Below are positions 2 through 29,562 of a stretch of 35,892 nt of DNA, piece after piece (position 1 is the first letter of the stretch; every line of letters starts with the position of its first letter). Below the pieces are notes generated by a model. That model searched no databases and was not told where the DNA came from. It was given only the letters and a program-made list of their open reading frames with translations. Origin of the DNA: a virus. The stretch spans positions 1 to 35,892 of the IMG/VR virus record IMGVR_UViG_3300033141_003411, one strand, 5' to 3'. The translations under genes and the position numbers were made by a program.

Positions 2-1354
2 AGGAAAAAAATTAGCCGGAAGCCCCCAAGAGGAATGACTAAGGAGCGAACAAAAAGTAATGCCCCACTAAGATTGCGAGATGCGGTGTCTGCCTTTGTG
101 GACCATGAATTAAAACGGCGGCATTATAATGCAGTAGAATTAAATGCTAAAGATGTTTTACAGCTAATCAATGACCCTAAACTTTCTTCAAGAATAAACA
201 ATACAACAGGTGTGTCTTTTAATAATATATTAAAAAAATGGGTCAATGATGCTGCAACTGAAAAAACAGAGGAAATAAGCAACTGGTTCAATAAGTTTAT
301 GAGTGGAATGAGACGCAATTATGTTACATACGCACTTGGGGGCAATATGGTTACTATAATGAGGCAGCCGATTTCCTGGTGGTTAGCCGTTGCGAAAGAC
401 CCCCTTGTGTTAGTAAACTCACTCACACATGCCCATAAACTTTCTGTGAATTATAGAAAGTACTCTAAGGATGCTTTTGAAAAAAGTAGGATATTAAAAG
501 CCCGTTTTATGGAACGTGAGTTAAAAGAACTGGCCCTTTTAAAGTCCCCAAAGAAAATTTTAGGGAAGCGAATAAATAAAGAAATGGCTTTTGCTATGGT
601 TCGAGCAATGGACAAAGTTACTGTAACTGCTGTGTGGCAAGGGGCTTATCAGGCTGCTCAACAAAGAGGCATAACAGACCCGATGGTTGCAGCACAATAT
701 GCCGACAGTATCATTACTACTACTCAGCCTATGGGGGGATTAGAGGATTTGCCAGATATTTTCAGAGGTGGTACTTTCGCAAAGATGTTTACTGCTTTTC
801 AAAATCAAGTAAACCAACAATATAATTTCTGGGCTTTTGATGTTATCCAGGCTAAGCGAAAAGGCAGAATAAATAATCTTGAGTTGGCCTGGCGAGTTAT
901 GGTAGGACACATTATTCCTGCGTTTATTATGGGACTTGTAAGTCGGGGAAGACTCCCGGATGAAAAAGAAGTTCTTACAGACCAAGCTGGATATTTTATA
1001 TTGCCTCTATACTTTTTTGGCAACTTAGTGAATAACCTTCTGCAAGGATACGGGGGGCGAGAAACTCTCCCTTTGCAAGTTTATGATGATATTGCAGACA
1101 TAAAAGAGTATAAAGGTTGGGGGGCTAAGATTAAAGCAGGGCTAAGGGCTGCCGGGCGTGGTTTTGGTTGGCCCCTTAACCAGCCAATTCGTACAATAGA
1201 AGGAGCATTGGACCTTTTTAATAAGAAGGATACGGATTATCGCCGGTTAATCTGGTCTAAATACATGCTCCAAAAACGGGAAGAGCCGACTACCAAACGC
1301 CCTGTGTTAAGGCGTAGAAAGAGGGGACGTGGAAGGGGAAGACGTGCAAGATAA
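2..1354 (+). CDS. C-terminal part of a large phage virion / polyvalent-type protein (5' end outside window)
   Basis: The frame is open to the left edge, so the ATG at 35 is probably internal and the true protein is longer. The visible 451 codons are mostly helical. The central part (TMFxxFQNQVNQQYNFWAFD-like, about residues 255-285) and the following hydrophobic stretch (IIPAFIMGLVSRG, YFILPLYFFGNLVNNLL) resemble the C-terminal domains of very large phage polyvalent or internal virion proteins (LPD38-like); this assignment is from memory of the motif. The last 20 residues are strongly basic (RRRKRGRGRGRRAR). It is the penultimate gene of a plus-strand late block and overlaps the small membrane gene that follows. 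Confidence 0.6.
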   Translation, partial: RKKISRKPPRGMTKERTKSNAPLRLRDAVSAFVDHELKRRHYNAVELNAKDVLQLINDPKLSSRINNTTGVSFNNILKKWVNDAATEKTEEISNWFNKFMSGMRRNYVTYALGGNMVTIMRQPISWWLAVAKDPLVLVNSLTHAHKLSVNYRKYSKDAFEKSRILKARFMERELKELALLKSPKKILGKRINKEMAFAMVRAMDKVTVTAVWQGAYQAAQQRGITDPMVAAQYADSIITTTQPMGGLEDLPDIFRGGTFAKMFTAFQNQVNQQYNFWAFDVIQAKRKGRINNLELAWRVMVGHIIPAFIMGLVSRGRLPDEKEVLTDQAGYFILPLYFFGNLVNNLLQGYGGRETLPLQVYDDIADIKEYKGWGAKIKAGLRAAGRGFGWPLNQPIRTIEGALDLFNKKDTDYRRLIWSKYMLQKREEPTTKRPVLRRRKRGRGRGRRAR

Positions 1355-1505
1355 AGACCGAGACATTTTAATAAAATTAGAAAGAGACATGTCCTGGGTA
1401 AAGACTATGCTGAGCAATCATCTTCGGCACCACTGGGCGGTTACATTAGCTTTGCTTGGTATTGCCGGAAGTTTAAGTGTCGCTCTCATTATTGCACTTA
1501 TTTAA
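1344..1505 (+). CDS. Small XhlA-like membrane protein, holin candidate
   Basis: This 53-residue ORF starts at GTG with a good ribosome binding site (GGAAGGGGAAGAC-GTG) inside the 3' end of the preceding gene. Residues 1-27 form a charged amphipathic segment (KLERDMSWVKTMLSNHLRHH) and residues 31-53 a single membrane helix (LALLGIAGSLSVALIIALI). This is the layout of XhlA-type haemolysin/holin accessory proteins. Its place at the end of the late operon fits a lysis role, but no endolysin is visible beside it, so the function is an inference. Its 3' end overlaps the convergent minus-strand gene by 33 bases. Confidence 0.6.
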   Translation: MQDKDRDILIKLERDMSWVKTMLSNHLRHHWAVTLALLGIAGSLSVALIIALI

Positions 1506-2747: not shown

Positions 2748-3139
2748 TATAGGTTCTCCAGCCACACCTTTAACAATTCCAGATTTGCCTCGCTCATATC
2801 CTCAAGAAAATAAACAGGAACTCCTGTAACTCTTGCGGTTGTCAATTCTCTTTCCATACCCCCTGAAAGCTTTAGAGCATCACAGCGAGAAACAATAACG
2901 CAATCAATATCAAGTATTTGTTCAACATCCAAGAAACCTAACTCTAAAGCAACTTGTGGAAACTCATCCATTTCTGCGGGCACATAGAAGTCAAGATTAC
3001 TCCCAAAGTATATTCTTAGTTGTTTACAAACTTCTTTAGCTTTTGTAAGATTAGACTCTATTGTTTCTACAGACGCTTCATTGCCCTCAAGTCCCCGAAT
3101 ATAGTGGGACACATACACTTTAATCTTTTTCTTTAACAT
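2747..3139 (-). CDS. Nucleoside 2-deoxyribosyltransferase-like protein (DUF4406 type)
   Basis: The protein has 130 residues. The start at 3139 has a GAGGA SD and cuts an in-frame extension (MRIFV) that would run further into the upstream gene. It has a Rossmann-like fold signature: KVYVSHYIRG at the N-terminus (like YISGPIxG of DUF4406), VEQILDIDCVIVSRCDAL, then SGGMERELTTAR with the Glu where NDT-family enzymes have their catalytic acid, then GVPVYFLED. Family members cleave or exchange the base of deoxynucleosides or deoxynucleotides, so a role in phage nucleotide metabolism is likely. It sits directly downstream of a dATP/dGTP diphosphohydrolase-type gene. Confidence 0.7.
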   Translation of the reverse strand: MLKKKIKVYVSHYIRGLEGNEASVETIESNLTKAKEVCKQLRIYFGSNLDFYVPAEMDEFPQVALELGFLDVEQILDIDCVIVSRCDALKLSGGMERELTTARVTGVPVYFLEDMSEANLELLKVWLENL

Positions 3140-3494
3140 TACAAAAATCCTCATAGTGGGGCATGTCGTCTAAAGTTTCTGACAAAATCCCCATTGTTAT
3201 CATTTCTTCATAGTGCATAAGAAACTCCGCATTTACTGCAATAGCAGCAAGATGGTCTTCATTTTTCCTGCCCATCATATATTGTAAAAGATGCCTAAAC
3301 ATAGAAGCAACACACCGGCTAAAGGGAATACCCTTTTCCCAGTTTCTTTCAGCGTATTTGATAGCACCCAATCTGAGCCACTCCCCCTTACGCCATTGAG
3401 CATAGGGTGAAATTAAATCAGGACGTGGTTTATCTTCTGCGGCGTCTCTAACTGCACCTGTTTCAAACTCGCTCCTTTTTCCAGAATCTTCCAT
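3120..3494 (-). CDS. dATP/dGTP diphosphohydrolase N-terminal domain protein (DUF5664 type)
   Basis: The 124-residue protein matches the layout of the phage DUF5664 domain (now named for dATP/dGTP diphosphohydrolase): FETGAVRDAAEDKPRPDLIS, then GAIKYAERNWEKGIPFSRCV, FRHLLQYMMG, and EDHLAAIAVNAEFLMHYEE. The conserved E/D and H residues sit in the all-alpha MazG-like positions. Members act on purine dNTPs and occur in some phages that alter their dNTP pools, including Z-genome phages, but they also occur in many ordinary phages. The start has a strong SD (AAGGAGTAATTAA-ATG). It is grouped with the DUF6899 and deoxyribosyltransferase-like genes. Confidence 0.75.
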   Translation of the reverse strand: MEDSGKRSEFETGAVRDAAEDKPRPDLISPYAQWRKGEWLRLGAIKYAERNWEKGIPFSRCVASMFRHLLQYMMGRKNEDHLAAIAVNAEFLMHYEEMITMGILSETLDDMPHYEDFCNVKEKD

Positions 3495-4283: not shown

Positions 4284-4694
4284 TTATAACCCCTTTGCTT
4301 TTTTTAAAATTTTAACACCCTTTTTACAACACTCAATTATTTCCTCTAACTCTTCTTTAGTAAGAGTAGTTTTCTGACGAGATAATTTGAGTAATCTGTT
4401 GAACTCTTTCTCACCGTAGGTATTTATAATATATTCTGAGTATTCTGCACCTCGACCAGACTTAAACCGATTGCACGAAATACATTGGGGATGGCAATTG
4501 TAAAGTTCAAAACGAGTACCCAACTTATCTCTATTTATCCAATGACCAGCATCAATTTCTTTCCAGAATCTGACCACCCCACAGGTGATACACGCACAAT
4601 GTCCTGAATCAGAAGCGGCTTGCAACCGGATAAATCGTGAAAACCATCTATCTGCTGTCTTTATAAGTTGGCGAATACTTTTAGGTTTTCTCAT
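4284..4694 (-). CDS. ninG: NinG / Rap-like recombination protein
   Basis: The 136-residue protein matches lambda NinG: KTADRWFSRFIRLQAAS, then CACITCGVVRFWKEIDAGHWINRD, then ELYNCHPQCISCNRFKSGRGAEYSEYI and a helical C-terminus. The CxTC, GH and C..CN residues form a zinc-stabilised HNH-like core. NinG/Rap proteins promote RecBCD-independent recombination in lambda through Holliday-junction cleavage. Its length is shorter than lambda NinG (about 200 residues) but the core is complete. It lies in the same operon as the nucleotide-metabolism genes, downstream of a leaderless-type promoter. Confidence 0.85.
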   Translation of the reverse strand: MRKPKSIRQLIKTADRWFSRFIRLQAASDSGHCACITCGVVRFWKEIDAGHWINRDKLGTRFELYNCHPQCISCNRFKSGRGAEYSEYIINTYGEKEFNRLLKLSRQKTTLTKEELEEIIECCKKGVKILKKAKGL

Positions 4695-8772: not shown

Positions 8773-9110
8773 AATAGTTTCCTTAAATTTGAAATAGTTT
8801 CTTCACTCAGTGCACTTAATGGCTCAACTTTAATACTAACTTTATAGGTAATTTCAGTTTCAGGCTCAGCTTTTTTGACAAGCTCCAGACAAAAAAAGGG
8901 CCAGTATCCCCCTTCTTCAAGATGTATATAATCTGGCCCAATTTTATCAATCTTTCTTTCTAACCCTCTTATTTCTAAACTCTTGTGTCCTTTACAACCT
9001 AACTCATCAGAACACATATCTCTCAAAATCCTTACAGTATCGCCGACCTTTACATTGTACAACTTAATCCAAGATGCCTGTAAATGCTTGTAGGCTTCTT
9101 TATCCGTCAT
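8769..9110 (-). CDS. Hypothetical protein, paralogue of 9402-9764
   Basis: The start at ATG 9110 (SD AGGGAGACCAAAA-ATG) gives MTDKEAYKHLQASW, matching the start of the gene at 9402-9764 nearly residue for residue; the longer ORF adds a hydrophobic extension encoded inside the GroES-like gene. The 113-residue protein has shared blocks: VKVGDTVRILR, ELGC, YWPFFCLELVKKA, and LSALSEETISNLRKL. Function is unknown. The two copies flank the co-chaperonin gene. Confidence 0.7.
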   Translation of the reverse strand: MTDKEAYKHLQASWIKLYNVKVGDTVRILRDMCSDELGCKGHKSLEIRGLERKIDKIGPDYIHLEEGGYWPFFCLELVKKAEPETEITYKVSIKVEPLSALSEETISNLRKLL

Positions 9111-9417
9111 TTTTGGTCTCCCTAACAATTGATAAAATATAACTATCATCAAGAAGAATAACATAAGACATTTTTTCAAAATCAACCTCTAATACCCCAT
9201 CACCCTCAGCAACATAAAGAACAATGTCTCCTACATTTACTCCTGGTTTAATTAGTTTGCCGTTTGAGATAGAAAATCCAGGACCAACCGCAATAACCTC
9301 TCCCTCACTAAAGACAGAATACCTATTGCCCGGTAGCTTAATTCCACCAGAACTTTCCTCTTTTTTGATTTCTTTCAATAAAATACGGCCTCTATTTGGT
9401 TCTAAAAATCTAAACAT
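9100..9417 (-). CDS. GroES-like co-chaperonin
   Basis: The 105-residue protein shows the cpn10 pattern in order: LEPNRGRILLKEIKKEESSGGIKLPGN (the mobile-loop region that contacts GroEL), GEVIAVGPG, NGKLIKPGVNVGDIVLYV, and a C-terminal MSYVILLDDSYILSIV. Phage co-chaperonins such as T4 gp31 replace GroES to fold the capsid protein on host GroEL, so a role in capsid folding is likely. Unlike structural genes it sits in the early minus-strand block. The SD is AGGAGACGCTCAGA-ATG. Confidence 0.8.
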   Translation of the reverse strand: MFRFLEPNRGRILLKEIKKEESSGGIKLPGNRYSVFSEGEVIAVGPGFSISNGKLIKPGVNVGDIVLYVAEGDGVLEVDFEKMSYVILLDDSYILSIVRETKNDG

Positions 9418-23579: not shown

Positions 23580-23753
23580 ATGAAACGTTGTGAGCGTTGC
23601 GGATTGTCAAAACCAAAATCAGCATTTTACCAGCGTGAGGACCGAATTGGGCAAAGTGAGTATGCCTGGTGTATTAGCTGTTGTAAGCAAGAGGGCAGAG
23701 TAACTAAAACAAAATACAATAAATTACATTATGATAAGGGGTATTTACACTAA
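23580..23753 (+). CDS. Small zinc-finger protein before the terminase (57 residues)
   Basis: The product is MKRCERCGLSKPKSAFYQRE, then YAWCISCCKQEGRVTKTKYN. CERCG and CISC with the 'KPKSAFY' turn match the zinc motif found at the N-terminus of phage endonuclease VII-like proteins and of the gene at 22172. The SD is AAAGGGTTATT-ATG and the stop overlaps the next ATG (TAATG). Confidence 0.65.
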   Translation: MKRCERCGLSKPKSAFYQREDRIGQSEYAWCISCCKQEGRVTKTKYNKLHYDKGYLH

Positions 23754-24388
23754 TGGCAAGAAAACCTTTGAATAAGAAGGAAGCCGAGAAATCCGATTAC
23801 AAGAATTGGGATGATGACGTCAAGATATATAAAACCCGGAAACGAGTTAAGTGGGATTATAATTTTGTGAAAATTGCTGCTCGGTTGGTAGCTTCTGGGC
23901 ATTCTGAAAAGGATTTGGGGTATGTTCTTGGGGTACGGGCGAGTACAATTGCGAAATGGAAACAACGTTATCCTCAATTTAAAGCAGCCTGTAGTAACGG
24001 TAAGAATATTGCAAAAAATTACTTAATATCAAGCGGTTTGAAAGCAGCCTGTGGGTATGATTATGAAGAAGAAACTTGGGAAAGAAGGAAAAAAGGCGAG
24101 GGTGAGAATGGCGACCCTTTTTGGGAAATGGTTTGCATTAAAAAAACGAAGAAACATCAAAAGCCGGACGCAAGCTTGCTTCAATTCTTTTTAATTAACA
24201 TGTCGGATGAATTTACGAACACACGGACGGTGAATGTAAATGAAACGAAAAAAAGTTTAGATGTCAAAATAACGGGCCAAATTGAGTCAGACACTATTCG
24301 GGATTTTGCAGGACGTTTACTTGCCCAAGCAGATGAGGCGGATAAGAAAAAAGTTAAAAGTAAAGTAATTGATAGTAAGTTGGCTTAA
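23753..24388 (+). CDS. terS: Terminase small subunit
   Basis: The 211-residue protein has a central HTH (about 38-75: FVKIAARLVASGHSEKDLGYVLGVRASTIAKWKQRYPQF) followed by the helical segment IAKNYLISSGLKAAC and an acidic/basic C-terminus. The layout and position directly upstream of the P-loop protein and large terminase support a DNA-recognition subunit that binds the packaging site. The identification rests on the HTH and context. Confidence 0.75.
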   Translation: MARKPLNKKEAEKSDYKNWDDDVKIYKTRKRVKWDYNFVKIAARLVASGHSEKDLGYVLGVRASTIAKWKQRYPQFKAACSNGKNIAKNYLISSGLKAACGYDYEEETWERRKKGEGENGDPFWEMVCIKKTKKHQKPDASLLQFFLINMSDEFTNTRTVNVNETKKSLDVKITGQIESDTIRDFAGRLLAQADEADKKKVKSKVIDSKLA

Positions 24389-24398
24389 GGAGACCGGG

Positions 24399-24731
24399 AT
24401 GAGAATAATAGAAAGACCCCGAAATAGTGGTAAAACTACCATATTACTGCATTTTATGATGTTGGTTAATGACAGTATTTATGTGGCACGAACTTGTGCA
24501 CAGGCGAAAAAAGTTTTTGAGATGTCTAAAAGATTGGGGTGTAATTTAGATGCTTCACGGTTTATTGGTATGAAAGACCCCTTGATTGAGAAATACCACT
24601 ATCAGTTTTTGATTGATGACTTTGATTGCATTGTTAAAAAACAGGGCAGTGCTGCGTATAACTTGTTAGATGTTGCAAGTGTTATTACACTAACACAACA
24701 AAAAGAAAAAAGTAAGTTACTTGATGAATAG
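24399..24731 (+). CDS. Small stand-alone P-loop protein next to the terminase
   Basis: ATG 24399 has TAAGGAGACCGGG upstream; the ORF extension before it overlaps terS. The 110-residue product has IIERPRNSGKTTILLHFMM (Walker A-like, with Arg at the usual Gly/Ala position) and YQFLIDDFDCIV (Walker B-like hhhhDD). It is too short for a complete ATPase motor. Similar mini P-loop proteins occur next to terminase genes in other phages, with unknown role. Its last bases overlap the large terminase start. Confidence 0.65.
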   Translation: MRIIERPRNSGKTTILLHFMMLVNDSIYVARTCAQAKKVFEMSKRLGCNLDASRFIGMKDPLIEKYHYQFLIDDFDCIVKKQGSAAYNLLDVASVITLTQQKEKSKLLDE

Positions 24732-26757
24732 TCTAAAAGTATTTGACAGCCCAGAAGCTCTTTTAAAGATTGTGCCTCGGACTGTTGTCGAAAATCTTAA
24801 ATTCAGGATGGACTTCCATCGCAGGGTGGCTACTGACCCCAGTATGCAGCAGGTTTTTTTGGAAATGTGTTTTCAAAAGCCACAACTCTACTATGACCTG
24901 TGTTGCTTCACTTACGACCCACGACAGCCCAGGGGTTGTGTAAACCGTCCATTTATTTTAAGAGAGGCCCAAGTTGAGGCGGTTAATGAGTTAAAATCAG
25001 GGATTGACAACGGTCGGAATAAACTTATTGACAAGTCAAGAGAAGAGGGGGCAACTGAGCTTATTATTAAACTATTCGCTCTTTATTGGAAAATTTTCCC
25101 ACAAGAGTCATTTTTAATAGGCTCACGTGCTGCCGAATTTGTGGATGCTGGTGTAGAAGTATCAAAAGGACAGTTGACGGGGGTTCACAAATGTTTGATG
25201 CACAAACTCCTCTATGCTGTGGTACATTGGCCAAAATGGATGCAGCCAAATTTTCTTAAAACGTATATGCGGGCAGAAAACTTGGATAATGGCAGTGTTA
25301 TTTATGGGCAGTCATGTAATGAAAACTTTGGTGCGGGGGATAGATGCAGGGCAGTTATGGTTGATGAGCATGGTCGTATGGAGCACAAGATAGCTGCCGC
25401 AATTGTTGATAACTTGCCTGATGTAACGGAGTGTGTTATATATAATTCTACTCATTTCTATGGGATGGGACATCCATATAATAGGCTGCTTTCAAGTGGT
25501 AAAATTGATGTGATAGTGCTTCCTTGGGAAAGGAATACTGAGAAAAACCAAGGTTTATACAGGTCTCCAAGTTATGATATTATTGAAATAAAGGATATTG
25601 AATACTACAAAAAGTTAGCTCCGTTAGCTTTTGAAAACATAAAGGCAATGGAGCCTTTTAAGTTAAGTACCTTTACAAAAGACATGCTAACACTTCCAGA
25701 AAAGGAAGCGAAAGTCCTTAAAAACATTAGTTTTATAGCTGATGGGGGCGATACTAATGAGGGGGGTTGGAGAAGTGCTTGGTATGACATGGAAGAAAAG
25801 AAACGAACTCGTAGGGGGATGGCACAAAATGTTGACCGCAACCCAATGGGGTCAGGTGCTATGTTCTTTTCTCCGGCCACATTGCGAAGAATACGATTAG
25901 AAACTATTCGTCCTGCGAGATATAAAGGTGAAATTCAGTTTACATTAAAGACAGAAGGTAAAAATCATATACCAAAAATATCACAACCGTATTTTAAAGA
26001 GGGCGGACGTGGGAGACTTAGATGGTGGGGGAAGTTGATAAAGGGCAGACCAGACCAAGCTCATAACTATATTGTAGCTTGTGATATTGCCAGAGGCATG
26101 GGTTCTTCTAATTCTGTAGCACAAATTATAGATGCAAATACAAATGAACAGGTTGGGCTTTGGGTTTGTCCAAATACTACCCCGGATGCTTTTGCAGACC
26201 AATCAGTAGCAATTTGTATGTGGTGTGGTGGGTTGACGAGGAAAGCTTTTTTGATTTGGGAAGAAAATGGTCCCGGTGGAGCTTTTGACCAGAGACGGCG
26301 AAAGCTTGGTTATAGTTTTGTTTATGTGCGAAAAAATGAAAGAGCAAGGACAAGGAAAAAGAAACAGACTTTTGGTTGGCACTCAGGTAGGACAGAGAAG
26401 TTTGATTTACTGCAAGAACTTGATTTAGCTTTAGCCAGAGGTTTGCAAACAAGACCTAATGATAAGTTTATAATTTTACACGATGGGGAGACTTTGACGG
26501 AACTTGAGACATACATTACATTTGATAACGGGGAGATTGGACCATCGGGATTGTCCGAGGATGTTACCAGTGGGGCAAAAGCAGCACACGGTGATAGGGT
26601 AATTGCTCTGGGCTTAACAGTTTTGGCAATGAAGGAGCAAATAAAAGCTGCTATGGTTGAGGTAAGAAAGATTCCGAAAAATTGTTTTGCTTATCGTGCT
26701 CGTTTGCGGCAAAGAGCATTAAATCAACCAGATTATAGTAGAAAGTTTTTAAAATAA
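24724..26757 (+). CDS. terL: Terminase large subunit
   Basis: The 677-residue protein has an N-terminal ATPase: DKSREEGATEL (Walker A variant of the KSRxxGxT type), then a Walker B AVMVDEHGRM. The C-terminal RNase H-like nuclease shows IVACDIARGMG (first Asp), FLIWEENGPGG (Glu) and AAHGDRVIALGL (last Asp). It packages DNA into proheads and cuts the concatemer. ATG 24724 is preferred over TTG 24721. The stop overlaps the next ATG (TAATG). Confidence 0.88.
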   Translation: MNSLKVFDSPEALLKIVPRTVVENLKFRMDFHRRVATDPSMQQVFLEMCFQKPQLYYDLCCFTYDPRQPRGCVNRPFILREAQVEAVNELKSGIDNGRNKLIDKSREEGATELIIKLFALYWKIFPQESFLIGSRAAEFVDAGVEVSKGQLTGVHKCLMHKLLYAVVHWPKWMQPNFLKTYMRAENLDNGSVIYGQSCNENFGAGDRCRAVMVDEHGRMEHKIAAAIVDNLPDVTECVIYNSTHFYGMGHPYNRLLSSGKIDVIVLPWERNTEKNQGLYRSPSYDIIEIKDIEYYKKLAPLAFENIKAMEPFKLSTFTKDMLTLPEKEAKVLKNISFIADGGDTNEGGWRSAWYDMEEKKRTRRGMAQNVDRNPMGSGAMFFSPATLRRIRLETIRPARYKGEIQFTLKTEGKNHIPKISQPYFKEGGRGRLRWWGKLIKGRPDQAHNYIVACDIARGMGSSNSVAQIIDANTNEQVGLWVCPNTTPDAFADQSVAICMWCGGLTRKAFLIWEENGPGGAFDQRRRKLGYSFVYVRKNERARTRKKKQTFGWHSGRTEKFDLLQELDLALARGLQTRPNDKFIILHDGETLTELETYITFDNGEIGPSGLSEDVTSGAKAAHGDRVIALGLTVLAMKEQIKAAMVEVRKIPKNCFAYRARLRQRALNQPDYSRKFLK

Positions 26758-27305
26758 TGTCTTGGTTACGAGATTTTATATCTAAATTATTTGCTTGGCT
26801 TCCAAGGCTGTATTGTATCAGTCCTGACGAAGGGGGTGTGCGGATAACTTTAGGGAAGTTTTTTAAATTAAAAGGTCCGGGTTGGTATTTTTATTGGCCA
26901 GTTATTCAGCAGATGTGTGTGATTGCAGTAATGCCAATGGTTAAGGATTTAAGAGGCCAGTCCTTACTTACAAAAGATGGAAAAAATGTTTTAATTTCAG
27001 GTGCAATTACTTATAAAGTTTTAGATGCTTCCAAAACAATTCTTGCAGTTCAGGATTACGAAAAATCTTTAATGAATACTGCTCTTGGTATAATTACAGA
27101 GTTTATTGTTTCAAGAACAAAAGAAGAGTGTAAGGAAATTTTTGATTTAAAAGATGAGATATTAAAAGGACTTAGGGAAGAAGCTTCTGGTTGGGGGTTA
27201 AAGATTATGAAAGTAGCCATCACTGATTTGGGGGATACCAAAAACATTAGGATTGTTGGTGAGGGGCTTCAAGCGGTGGGGTCGGAAGATATTACGGAAA
27301 GCTAA
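26757..27305 (+). CDS. SPFH / Band 7 (stomatin-prohibitin type) domain protein
   Basis: The 182-residue protein has YCISPDEGGVRITLGKFFKL, then GPGWYFYWPVIQQMCVIAVMPMV, LLTKDGKNVLISGAITYKV, YEKSLMNTALGIITEFIVSRTKEEC and EEASGWGLKIMKVAITDLGDTKNIRI. This is the full order of SPFH elements. There is only a short amphipathic N-terminus (LRDFISKLFAWLP) and no long C-terminal coiled coil, so it is shorter than cellular stomatins. Its place between terL and portal is unusual. A membrane or scaffold role in assembly is possible but unproved. Confidence 0.85.
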   Translation: MSWLRDFISKLFAWLPRLYCISPDEGGVRITLGKFFKLKGPGWYFYWPVIQQMCVIAVMPMVKDLRGQSLLTKDGKNVLISGAITYKVLDASKTILAVQDYEKSLMNTALGIITEFIVSRTKEECKEIFDLKDEILKGLREEASGWGLKIMKVAITDLGDTKNIRIVGEGLQAVGSEDITES

Positions 27306-27310
27306 AATAA

Positions 27311-29062
27311 ATGAGTGAAATAAATAAAACAAGTGTAAGACCTTTCGTAGTTCGGGTTCAAGATGCTGTTAAAAAATGGCAAAGAGTGGTGAAAGAGCCT
27401 TTAAGGCATCGGCAGAGGATGTTAGAACAGTATGCTTCAAACTACTATAGTGAAACAACAGTAGAGGGGCATTTAATGAATTTAACAGACCGGGCTGTTA
27501 GTATTGTTGTTCCATATTTGTCTATGTCAAATCCAAAAATTAGGGTACGTAGTCGGATTCCACAAATGCGGGCATGGGCAGCAACAGTGGAATTAGCAGT
27601 AAACCATTTAATTGAGGAAATTCGATTTGCCAAGTATTCTTTACGTCCTGCAATTTTTAATTCAATGTTTGGAATGGGCATTACTAAGACTGCAATTATG
27701 ACAGCAGAACAGACAGAACTTGGGGGTTATTTGCATGATATAGGGCAGATTTACACGGATGTCATTGATGACTCAGATTATATTGGGGATGTGTCTGCAA
27801 GGAATCGTGAGAATTTTGAACTCGAAGGACACTATTACTACCTTCCAACAGAGTATGCTCGTCAATTTTTTGGGTCAAAACATGCGGATTTTATACATGC
27901 AACACACGAACTTCATGGGGAAGAACACCCTGATAAAATATCAAAGCCGGGGATGATGTCAGAAGACTTTCATACTCTGAGGGAATGGACTCGTTTTATA
28001 GATATATGGCTTCCAGATGAACAAGTAACAATTACGATTTTACCAGAAGGATATAGGCACATCTTACGGACGGTAGATTATGAGGGGCCGGAAGGTGGGC
28101 CTTTTGATGTTTTGAGCTATAAATGCTTTCCTAATTCTCCAATACCAATTCCACCTGCTTGGGGCTGGACAGATTATGATACTGCTGCGAACATTCTTAT
28201 AAATAAAATGAGAAAGCAAGCAGAGAATGAAAAAACTATTATAGCATATTCAAGTGAAGCTGCCGAAGATATGGACAGAGTCGCTAAAGCTGGAGACAGG
28301 GAAACAGTTCAAGTGAATGATGTTGCGGCAATGCAGCAAGTTCAGTTTAATGGAGTAAACCCCGATAGTTATAATTTTTTGGGTCTTTTAGAAAACCAAT
28401 ACTCTATTTCTGGGGGTAATTTATATATAATAGGGGGAAGAGGTGCCCAGGCAGAAACCTTCGGTCAAGAACAAATGATGCAATCGAATGCTTCAAGGAT
28501 TTTAGAGGACATGTCAATACAAGTGCATGAGTTTACTGAGTCAATAGTGAGAAAATGGATTTGGAACTTTCTTGCAGACCCACTAATGCAAAGACATGAG
28601 ATAAAAAGAATACCTGGTGTAACCAATGTTGATGTTATTTTTGACCAAGTTGCGAAAGAGGGGGATTTTAATGATTTTGTTTTTGAAGTTCAACCTTACT
28701 CAATGCAGAAGTATCATCCTACACTTGAGTACCAAAAGACGATGTCATTCTTAACAGGATGGGTTATTCCAATTTCTCAAATGGCAGCACAACAGGGGTT
28801 GGTTTTGGATGTCGATGTGATAAATAAAGACTTGGCAAAATATCTTGATATTCCAAATATAGATTCTTGGTTTAAATCTGCTGTTCCAGATAATCCGGGG
28901 GGTCCGGCGGCATATCAGCCACTCCAAGGACGAGTTGTGCCGAAGTCAAACGGCGGTATTCAAGACGGAAGAATGGGGGACAACAGTAAAGCCAGTCGGG
29001 AGTCTAATTTAAATCAACAGCAAAATCGGGCGTTTATGAGTTCAAGTAAACCAGTAAGTTAA
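27311..29062 (+). CDS. Portal protein
   Basis: The 583-residue protein lies directly after the terminase/SPFH genes. It has the typical helical N-terminus (VQDAVKKWQRVVKEPLRHRQRMLEQY, NLTDRAVSIVVPYLSM), a wing region and the segment AETFGQEQMMQSNASRILEDM before a long helix, as in portal/connector proteins. The C-terminus is Pro/Gly/Asn-rich. It forms the dodecameric DNA channel at a capsid vertex. Identification is by motif style, size and position. Confidence 0.8.
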   Translation: MSEINKTSVRPFVVRVQDAVKKWQRVVKEPLRHRQRMLEQYASNYYSETTVEGHLMNLTDRAVSIVVPYLSMSNPKIRVRSRIPQMRAWAATVELAVNHLIEEIRFAKYSLRPAIFNSMFGMGITKTAIMTAEQTELGGYLHDIGQIYTDVIDDSDYIGDVSARNRENFELEGHYYYLPTEYARQFFGSKHADFIHATHELHGEEHPDKISKPGMMSEDFHTLREWTRFIDIWLPDEQVTITILPEGYRHILRTVDYEGPEGGPFDVLSYKCFPNSPIPIPPAWGWTDYDTAANILINKMRKQAENEKTIIAYSSEAAEDMDRVAKAGDRETVQVNDVAAMQQVQFNGVNPDSYNFLGLLENQYSISGGNLYIIGGRGAQAETFGQEQMMQSNASRILEDMSIQVHEFTESIVRKWIWNFLADPLMQRHEIKRIPGVTNVDVIFDQVAKEGDFNDFVFEVQPYSMQKYHPTLEYQKTMSFLTGWVIPISQMAAQQGLVLDVDVINKDLAKYLDIPNIDSWFKSAVPDNPGGPAAYQPLQGRVVPKSNGGIQDGRMGDNSKASRESNLNQQQNRAFMSSSKPVS

Positions 29063-29073
29063 AAGGAGATGAA

Positions 29074-29562
29074 ATGAAGAATGTTAATTGGTTGTTAGTA
29101 ATTGTGTGTGTTTTATCGTTATCATTGATAGGTTGTAGGAGTCTTTTAGACAGGCTAACTCCCGCAGAGATTGCAAAACTTAGTGCGGATTATTCTGGTC
29201 TTGAAGTTCCGGTAGTGTTAGAGGATATTGGTTCTTTGAGGGATGCTCGTAAAGTGCGGGATGCTATTATAATCAACCATCGAACAGAACAGTTGGACCT
29301 TTTGCGTTTGGCCCAAGACGATGAGCTTAGATATAAGGACGCAATTGGATTTATCGAAACTTCTATCACTGCGGCAGAAAACTTGCAAGATTTAATTGTT
29401 GGGTCAGAAGGGGAGCCTTTTAGTATTCTTGGAATTCTTGCTGGATTTACTGGCGGAGCGGCAATTGGCAAGATGTTGAAACGCAAGAATGATTTTTCTC
29501 CACAAGAAGTTGCAGAGGAAGTTGCAAAAGCTAAGGCGGATGTTAGGAAAGAACTGGCATGA
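29074..29562 (+). CDS. Predicted lipoprotein with glycine-zipper segment
   Basis: The N-terminus has a signal peptide with lipobox (VNWLLVIVCVLSLSLIGC, Cys about residue 21), so it should be lipidated and membrane-attached. Later there is a Gly-rich helix (ILGILAGFTGGAAIGKML) and a charged C-terminal helix. It sits between portal and endonuclease VII genes. It is not a recognisable spanin. A role in superinfection exclusion, DNA entry or the virion is possible. The SD is AAAAGGAGATGAA-ATG. Confidence 0.65.
   Translation: MKNVNWLLVIVCVLSLSLIGCRSLLDRLTPAEIAKLSADYSGLEVPVVLEDIGSLRDARKVRDAIIINHRTEQLDLLRLAQDDELRYKDAIGFIETSITAAENLQDLIVGSEGEPFSILGILAGFTGGAAIGKMLKRKNDFSPQEVAEEVAKAKADVRKELA

Follow-up and report, generated by a model that had tools for sequence, protein, structure and literature searches.

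Genes at the terL-portal locus

The stretch of DNA analysed here, called the window throughout, is a viral record of 35,892 bases. The features on which the argument turns are as follows.

23753..24388, plus strand: terminase small subunit (phrog_309, E=1.2e-22)
24721..26757, plus strand: terminase large subunit (TerL), 678 aa (PHROG terminase, E=7e-6; tblastn to annotated phage terminases, up to E=1e-18)
26752..27286, plus strand: exchangeable slot (blastn of segments)
26757..27305, plus strand: minimal SPFH/Band_7 protein, 182 aa (open reading frame with ATG start, PF01145, and PDB matches by sequence and by fold)
26760..26801, plus strand: N-terminal amphipathic helix SWLRDFISKLFAWL, then the invariant Pro16-Arg17 (model helix, hydrophobic moment, conservation)
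26817..27251, plus strand: SPFH1/SPFH2 core, residues 21-165 (Pfam envelope)
27252..27302, plus strand: short variable tail of 17 residues that replaces the usual coiled-coil region (alignments, low pLDDT)
27311..29062, plus strand: portal protein, 583 aa (family matches of its homologs)
29074..29562, plus strand: putative lipoprotein after the portal gene (lipobox LSLIGC; sequence, gene maps)

The SPFH start codon and the terL stop codon share one base (TAATG), and five nucleotides separate the SPFH stop from the portal start. A preliminary description of this DNA had placed a phage-encoded SPFH/Band 7 gene between TerL and portal; the reading frame and the names given to both flanking genes hold. 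The portal protein of the window matched no family by itself, and its structural model reached a pLDDT of only 42; its identity rests on its homologs, six of 12 of which match PF23899 SU10_portal (best 1.8e-9) and phrog_1216, also a portal family. The place of the putative lipoprotein is taken in many relatives by an HtrA-like protease.

Other genes of the window were recognized in passing.

1329-1505, plus strand: protein of 58 aa with one transmembrane segment, holin/XhlA-like in appearance, at a late operon end
3123-3494, minus strand: protein with a dATP/dGTP diphosphohydrolase N-terminal domain (PF18909, E=7e-18)
4287-4694, minus strand: NinG-like protein (PF05766, E=1.3e-18)
9103-9417, minus strand: GroES/Cpn10-like co-chaperonin (PF00166, E=1.4e-13), near an SSB gene

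A protein similar to the 58-aa membrane protein is encoded directly 5' of the SPFH gene in a related contig, L007, and an open reading frame of another, L066 (3941-4288), is also GroES-like as judged by eye. Relatives of TerL in GTDB genomes were found mostly in MAGs of Planctomycetota and other PVC bacteria (best 41%, Sedimentisphaerales), and a host of this kind is likely but not shown.

A minimal SPFH protein

The PF01145 Band_7 profile, which had been suggested as a check on the gene, matches its product with E=2.8e-20 and 73.6 bits, the curated cut-off being 23.6 bits. The protein contains the motifs PDEGGVRITLG and PGWYxYWP, and phmmer retrieved E. coli QmcA (1.7e-7) and stomatin (4.4e-7) from the PDB. 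An AlphaFold2 model built from seven homologs had a mean pLDDT of 68, which is only moderate. When it was submitted to Foldseek almost all of the matches were SPFH structures, led by stomatin (9z7u, E=7e-10), and it superimposed on the mouse stomatin core (4fvj) with a TM(target) of 0.77 and an rmsd of 2.2 A over 100 columns. The predicted structure, at this moderate pLDDT, thus retrieves SPFH structures, as the preliminary description had anticipated.

Classic SPFH proteins have an N-terminal transmembrane segment and a C-terminal coiled coil that is needed for oligomerisation (PMC2636767), and SPFH proteins form domed complexes (PMC12624060). Both parts are typical of the classic SPFH/Band_7 members, not of all, and two cellular subfamilies also seem to be soluble (PMC2636767). 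The window protein has no transmembrane segment. In its stead there is an amphipathic helix, at residues 2-11 of the model, with a mean hydrophobicity of 0.28 and a hydrophobic moment of 0.49; across the lineage described below the moment is approximately 0.4-0.8, and P16 and R17 are unchanged in 17 of 17 aligned sequences. This helix is likely to serve as a membrane-surface anchor. The C-terminal coiled coil is absent from the window protein and from all full-length members of the lineage, which end about 17 residues past the core. Because the transmembrane segment and the coiled coil are both lacking, a dome or cage built by this protein is unlikely; it is an SPFH-fold protein without the dome-building parts. 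The complete SPFH order that had been read from the gene therefore stands for the SPFH domain only, the coiled coil that usually follows in this family being missing, and the membrane cage that had been suggested does not agree with the architecture of the lineage.

A viral SPFH lineage

Relatives of the window protein were found in 42 viral contigs, with 40-100% identity, and in three MAG contigs. The latter were reached through TerL and look like phage contigs, since their SPFH genes lie near terL and portal. Full-length members of the lineage are approximately 170-200 aa long. In eight MAG genomes, by contrast, no Band_7 frame is shorter than 249 aa once the three phage-like copies and a single broken fragment are set aside. 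When 34 phage sequences were placed in a tree together with cellular and T4-like SPFH proteins, 33 fell into one group (support 93/89), which is distant from all of the cellular SPFHs sampled. Strict monophyly is not proven, because L066 lies just outside the main group and two poorly covered cellular fragments intervene. No relatives were found in the INPHARED phage collection at E<=0.01, no signature peptides of the lineage were confirmed in cellular genomes with the narrow patterns used, and a defence-system library gave no match to the SPFH protein.

The SPFH gene of the window is under purifying selection, with dN/dS of 0.12-0.17, and residues stay invariant across the lineage at about 45% identity. 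The copies in the window and in two relatives, L002 and L003, form one group with support of 100/100. Between the window and L002 dS is 0.49 for SPFH and 1.54 for portal; this lower value points to a recent transfer of the gene between these phages.

Exchange at the terL-portal slot

The order terL-SPFH-portal is also present in L002 and L003, both diverged from the window, and the gene is thus not absent from all close relatives. Among the eight closest TerL sequences the slot between terL and portal holds SPFH in three (the window, L002 and L003), a protein of 82 aa in four (L009, L014, L016 and L017) and a ClpP-type serine protease in one (L013). The synteny that had been proposed is accordingly real in L002 and L003, and SPFH is missing from the slot in the other five. 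In the more distant L015 and L018 the slot is empty. No Band_7 gene was found anywhere in the 47-kb record of L017, such records being possibly incomplete. The window and L009 are homologous in DNA up to 26751 and again from 27286 onwards, and therefore a single gene has been exchanged. A functional requirement for the terL-portal position is ruled out by the other slot contents of close relatives.

L009 2173-2421, L014 10453-10701, L016 1060-1308, L017 7746-7994 and L010 10001-10273: slot protein of SPFH-less relatives, 82-90 aa (phrog_25889)
L013 5371-6087, plus strand: ClpP-type serine protease in the slot (PF00574, E=1.8e-17), the sole ClpP among 20 records checked
L013 4602-4713, L014 8917-9354, L016 1309-1605, L017 7995-8639 and L037 3345-5380: split terL or portal frames

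The split frames may be due to frameshifts, inteins or inserted genes; an open reading frame of 145 aa lies between the terL halves of L014.

In other phages SPFH is found in several places. It lies ahead of the terminase genes in 21 loci, in the arrangement SPFH, often a protein of about 112 aa, an HtrA-like protease, a gene of about 130 aa, terL and portal. In 12 loci, some of them near-identical, it follows portal (terL, portal, HtrA-like, SPFH, scaffold, MCP), and in four rows it lies between terL and portal. One MAG contig has the order HtrA, SPFH, terL. The gene adjoins polA in L006 and L022, is at a late operon end in L007 and L041, lies within a DNA-metabolism region in L048, and is beside an unrelated portal family (PF04860) in L028. 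Because of this variety, the position of SPFH is uninformative on a packaging role. The head-scaffold function that had been deduced from position is not sustained by a slot that lacks SPFH in five close relatives, nor by a gene that occupies at least five other places elsewhere. The gene for the protein of about 112 aa (L019 3401-3739 and homologs) separates SPFH from the HtrA-like protease gene in approximately a dozen loci, and its product had no Pfam or PHROG match.

The protease neighbour

The commonest neighbour of the SPFH lineage, which the preliminary description does not mention, is an HtrA/trypsin-like protease of about 230 aa that is predicted to be signal-anchored. The two genes lie on one strand, 3-2125 bp apart, in 34 loci, with SPFH first in 21 and the protease first in 13. 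The neighbour belongs to Trypsin_2 (PF13365, E down to 3e-29). The His-Asp-Ser triad is intact in 43 of 43 of these proteases and nearly all have an N-terminal hydrophobic segment, and the triad and signal anchor place the gene in the HtrA/DegP-like trypsin family. From gene order the 220-255 aa gene beside SPFH had been guessed to be a small terminase; the Trypsin_2 match rules this out. The gene also resembles the protease domain of RT-Protease_XI in the defence-system library (9e-15).

Trypsin_2 was found in 20 of 29 and in 18 of 20 viral records. The protease gene is more widespread than SPFH, being present in the SPFH-less L010-L012, L015, L017 and L018, and in L006, L007 and L022 the two genes are far apart. 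It is not next to SPFH in the window, L002 or L003, and the window record contains neither a Trypsin_2 nor a ClpP gene. In L017 a divergent, shorter Trypsin_2 copy lies approximately 4.2 kb past the start of MCP; the matching place is just beyond the end of the window.

Over 27 loci the partial correlation of SPFH and HtrA distances, given terL, was 0.31, and none of 2000 permutations was as high. In a control with 16 loci carrying SPFH, HtrA, terS, terL and portal, SPFH distances tracked those of terL (0.60) and portal (0.63) better than those of HtrA (0.49). Co-divergence is ruled out as proof of a partnership, since terL and portal track SPFH as well or better. The adjacency of the two genes is a fact, and their partnership is what we infer from it. 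The protease domain is predicted to lie outside the cytoplasmic membrane and SPFH has no export signal; therefore any contact would run through the plane of the membrane.

Proposed function and alternatives

The reading we prefer, which is plausible rather than probable and draws on comparative analysis, is that the minimal SPFH protein gathers or regulates a membrane-anchored protease late in infection, as a movable accessory and not as a part of the packaging machinery. Its coupling to terL and portal suggests that it would be made late. Its amphipathic helix would keep it at the inner side of the host membrane, and it would oligomerise weakly or as the edge of a flat ring, not as a dome. 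In the resulting membrane patch it would gather or regulate a protease, in most cases the HtrA-like serine protease of the phage itself, and host envelope proteins would then be cut or protected during infection. The gene would be a movable accessory, in the window placed in the exchangeable slot between terL and portal, and the protease partner of the window protein is perhaps encoded beyond the end of the record or is a host protease. There is cellular precedent in SPFH operons with NfeD, some of them with a ClpP domain, and in the interaction of SPFH with FtsH (PMC2636767). A more doubtful extension is that these genes form an independent viral system, in which a minimal SPFH and a membrane-anchored HtrA-like (or ClpP-type) protease reshape the proteome of the host envelope in the late phase of infection.

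A short SPFH could instead join or cap a host SPFH complex of the HflKC, QmcA or stomatin type, and the resulting change in proteolysis by FtsH would spare phage proteins or shift the outcome of infection. A poison subunit would be expected to resemble the phage protein in keeping the SPFH core while lacking the coiled coil used for oligomerisation. Among cellular proteins SPFH11b has no coiled coil either, and its gene invariably lies next to that of a full-length partner (PMC2636767); full-length Band_7 proteins are encoded in all eight MAG genomes examined. For other SPFH proteins of phages, authors have appealed to the modulation of lambda lysogeny by HflKC (PMC8540360, PMC4936722). Inhibition of host FtsH-HflKC, as raised in the preliminary description, is possible. 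However, the distance of the viral lineage from all cellular SPFHs sampled argues against a recent copy of a host subunit, there is no transmembrane helix to reach periplasmic HflKC, and the frequent protease neighbour is left without a role, so that we consider such a decoy rather unlikely. The same proximity of HtrA is left unexplained if SPFH acts without a protease partner, coating and stabilising the inner membrane late in infection or blocking superinfecting DNA in the manner of phage-shock-type proteins. The amphipathic helix and the late-operon linkage are consistent with membrane protection of this kind, as is L007, in which SPFH comes after a small transmembrane protein at a late operon end; a bacterial SPFH protein links a phage-shock protein to the membrane (PMC8581546). 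We regard this explanation as unlikely.

An anchoring of the portal or prohead to the membrane would account for the overlap of SPFH translation with terL and for the location of most copies inside the packaging/head module, where 21 precede terL, 12 follow portal and 4 rows fall between the two genes. A packaging component would be expected to keep its presence and its position with terL and portal, and SPFH does neither: close relatives whose terL and portal are of the same type lack it (L009, L016 and L017), copies lie near polA (L006, L022) or DNA-metabolism genes (L048), and one is beside an unrelated portal family (L028). A role in head assembly or packaging is therefore improbable. The patchy distribution and the slot exchange would also suit a hitch-hiking moron that makes no difference to the phage, but the dN/dS values and the invariant residues render this very improbable.

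Should the protease reading be right, phages bring their own platform for membrane proteolysis, and a set of genes so far left without annotation in phages that infect uncultured bacteria, probably from Planctomycetota-rich communities, gains a function. The phage protein, kept under purifying selection and usually encoded beside a membrane-anchored protease, would then be a naturally trimmed form for studying, with no dome present, which part of an SPFH protein is required and how it serves proteases.

Comparison with known systems

Reports of SPFH proteins in phages go back to 2006, with those of the Aeromonas phages Aeh1 and 44RR and of Escherichia phage RB43 (PMC1524935). Several others have followed, including the 'SPFH band 7 lipoprotein' of Vi01-like phages, of which a few peptides were seen by mass spectrometry (PMC10892097), and those of DLP5 and the Bruynogheviruses. 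All share the Band_7 domain, and phrog_200 matches weakly. In contrast to the minimal form they are longer (Aeh1 ORF064c, 315 aa; RB43 ORF139c, approximately 300 aa) and are surrounded by unrelated genes, with neither terL nor an annotated protease next to them; those of Aeh1 and RB43 fall outside the viral lineage in the tree. The portal homologs connect the locus to the SU10-type podovirus portal/packaging module, from which it differs by the SPFH insertion. No description of an SPFH-protease-terminase module was found in the open-access literature, and the minimal lineage, its movement through slots near the packaging module and its HtrA-like neighbour appear to be undescribed.

Among cellular systems, the bacterial stomatin and QmcA-NfeD operons (SPFH1 and SPFH5 of PMC2636767) share the SPFH core with the phage protein and include its best PDB sequence match. 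They also have a membrane protease gene near SPFH, NfeD1b carrying a ClpP domain. The phage protein differs in lacking the N-terminal transmembrane helix and the C-terminal coiled coil and is separate in the tree, and its neighbour is neither NfeD nor FtsH but a Trypsin_2 protease or, in the SPFH-less slot of L013, a Clp protease. With HflK/HflC-FtsH the phage loci have in common the SPFH core and, as a principle, the proposed pairing of SPFH with a membrane protease. HflK (419 aa) is about twice as long as the phage protein, FtsH is enclosed by HflK/C in a cage or nautilus assembly (PMC12048511), and no FtsH was found at the phage SPFH loci. A viral SPFH-protease system, if real, would be the viral counterpart of HflKC-FtsH and stomatin-NfeD.
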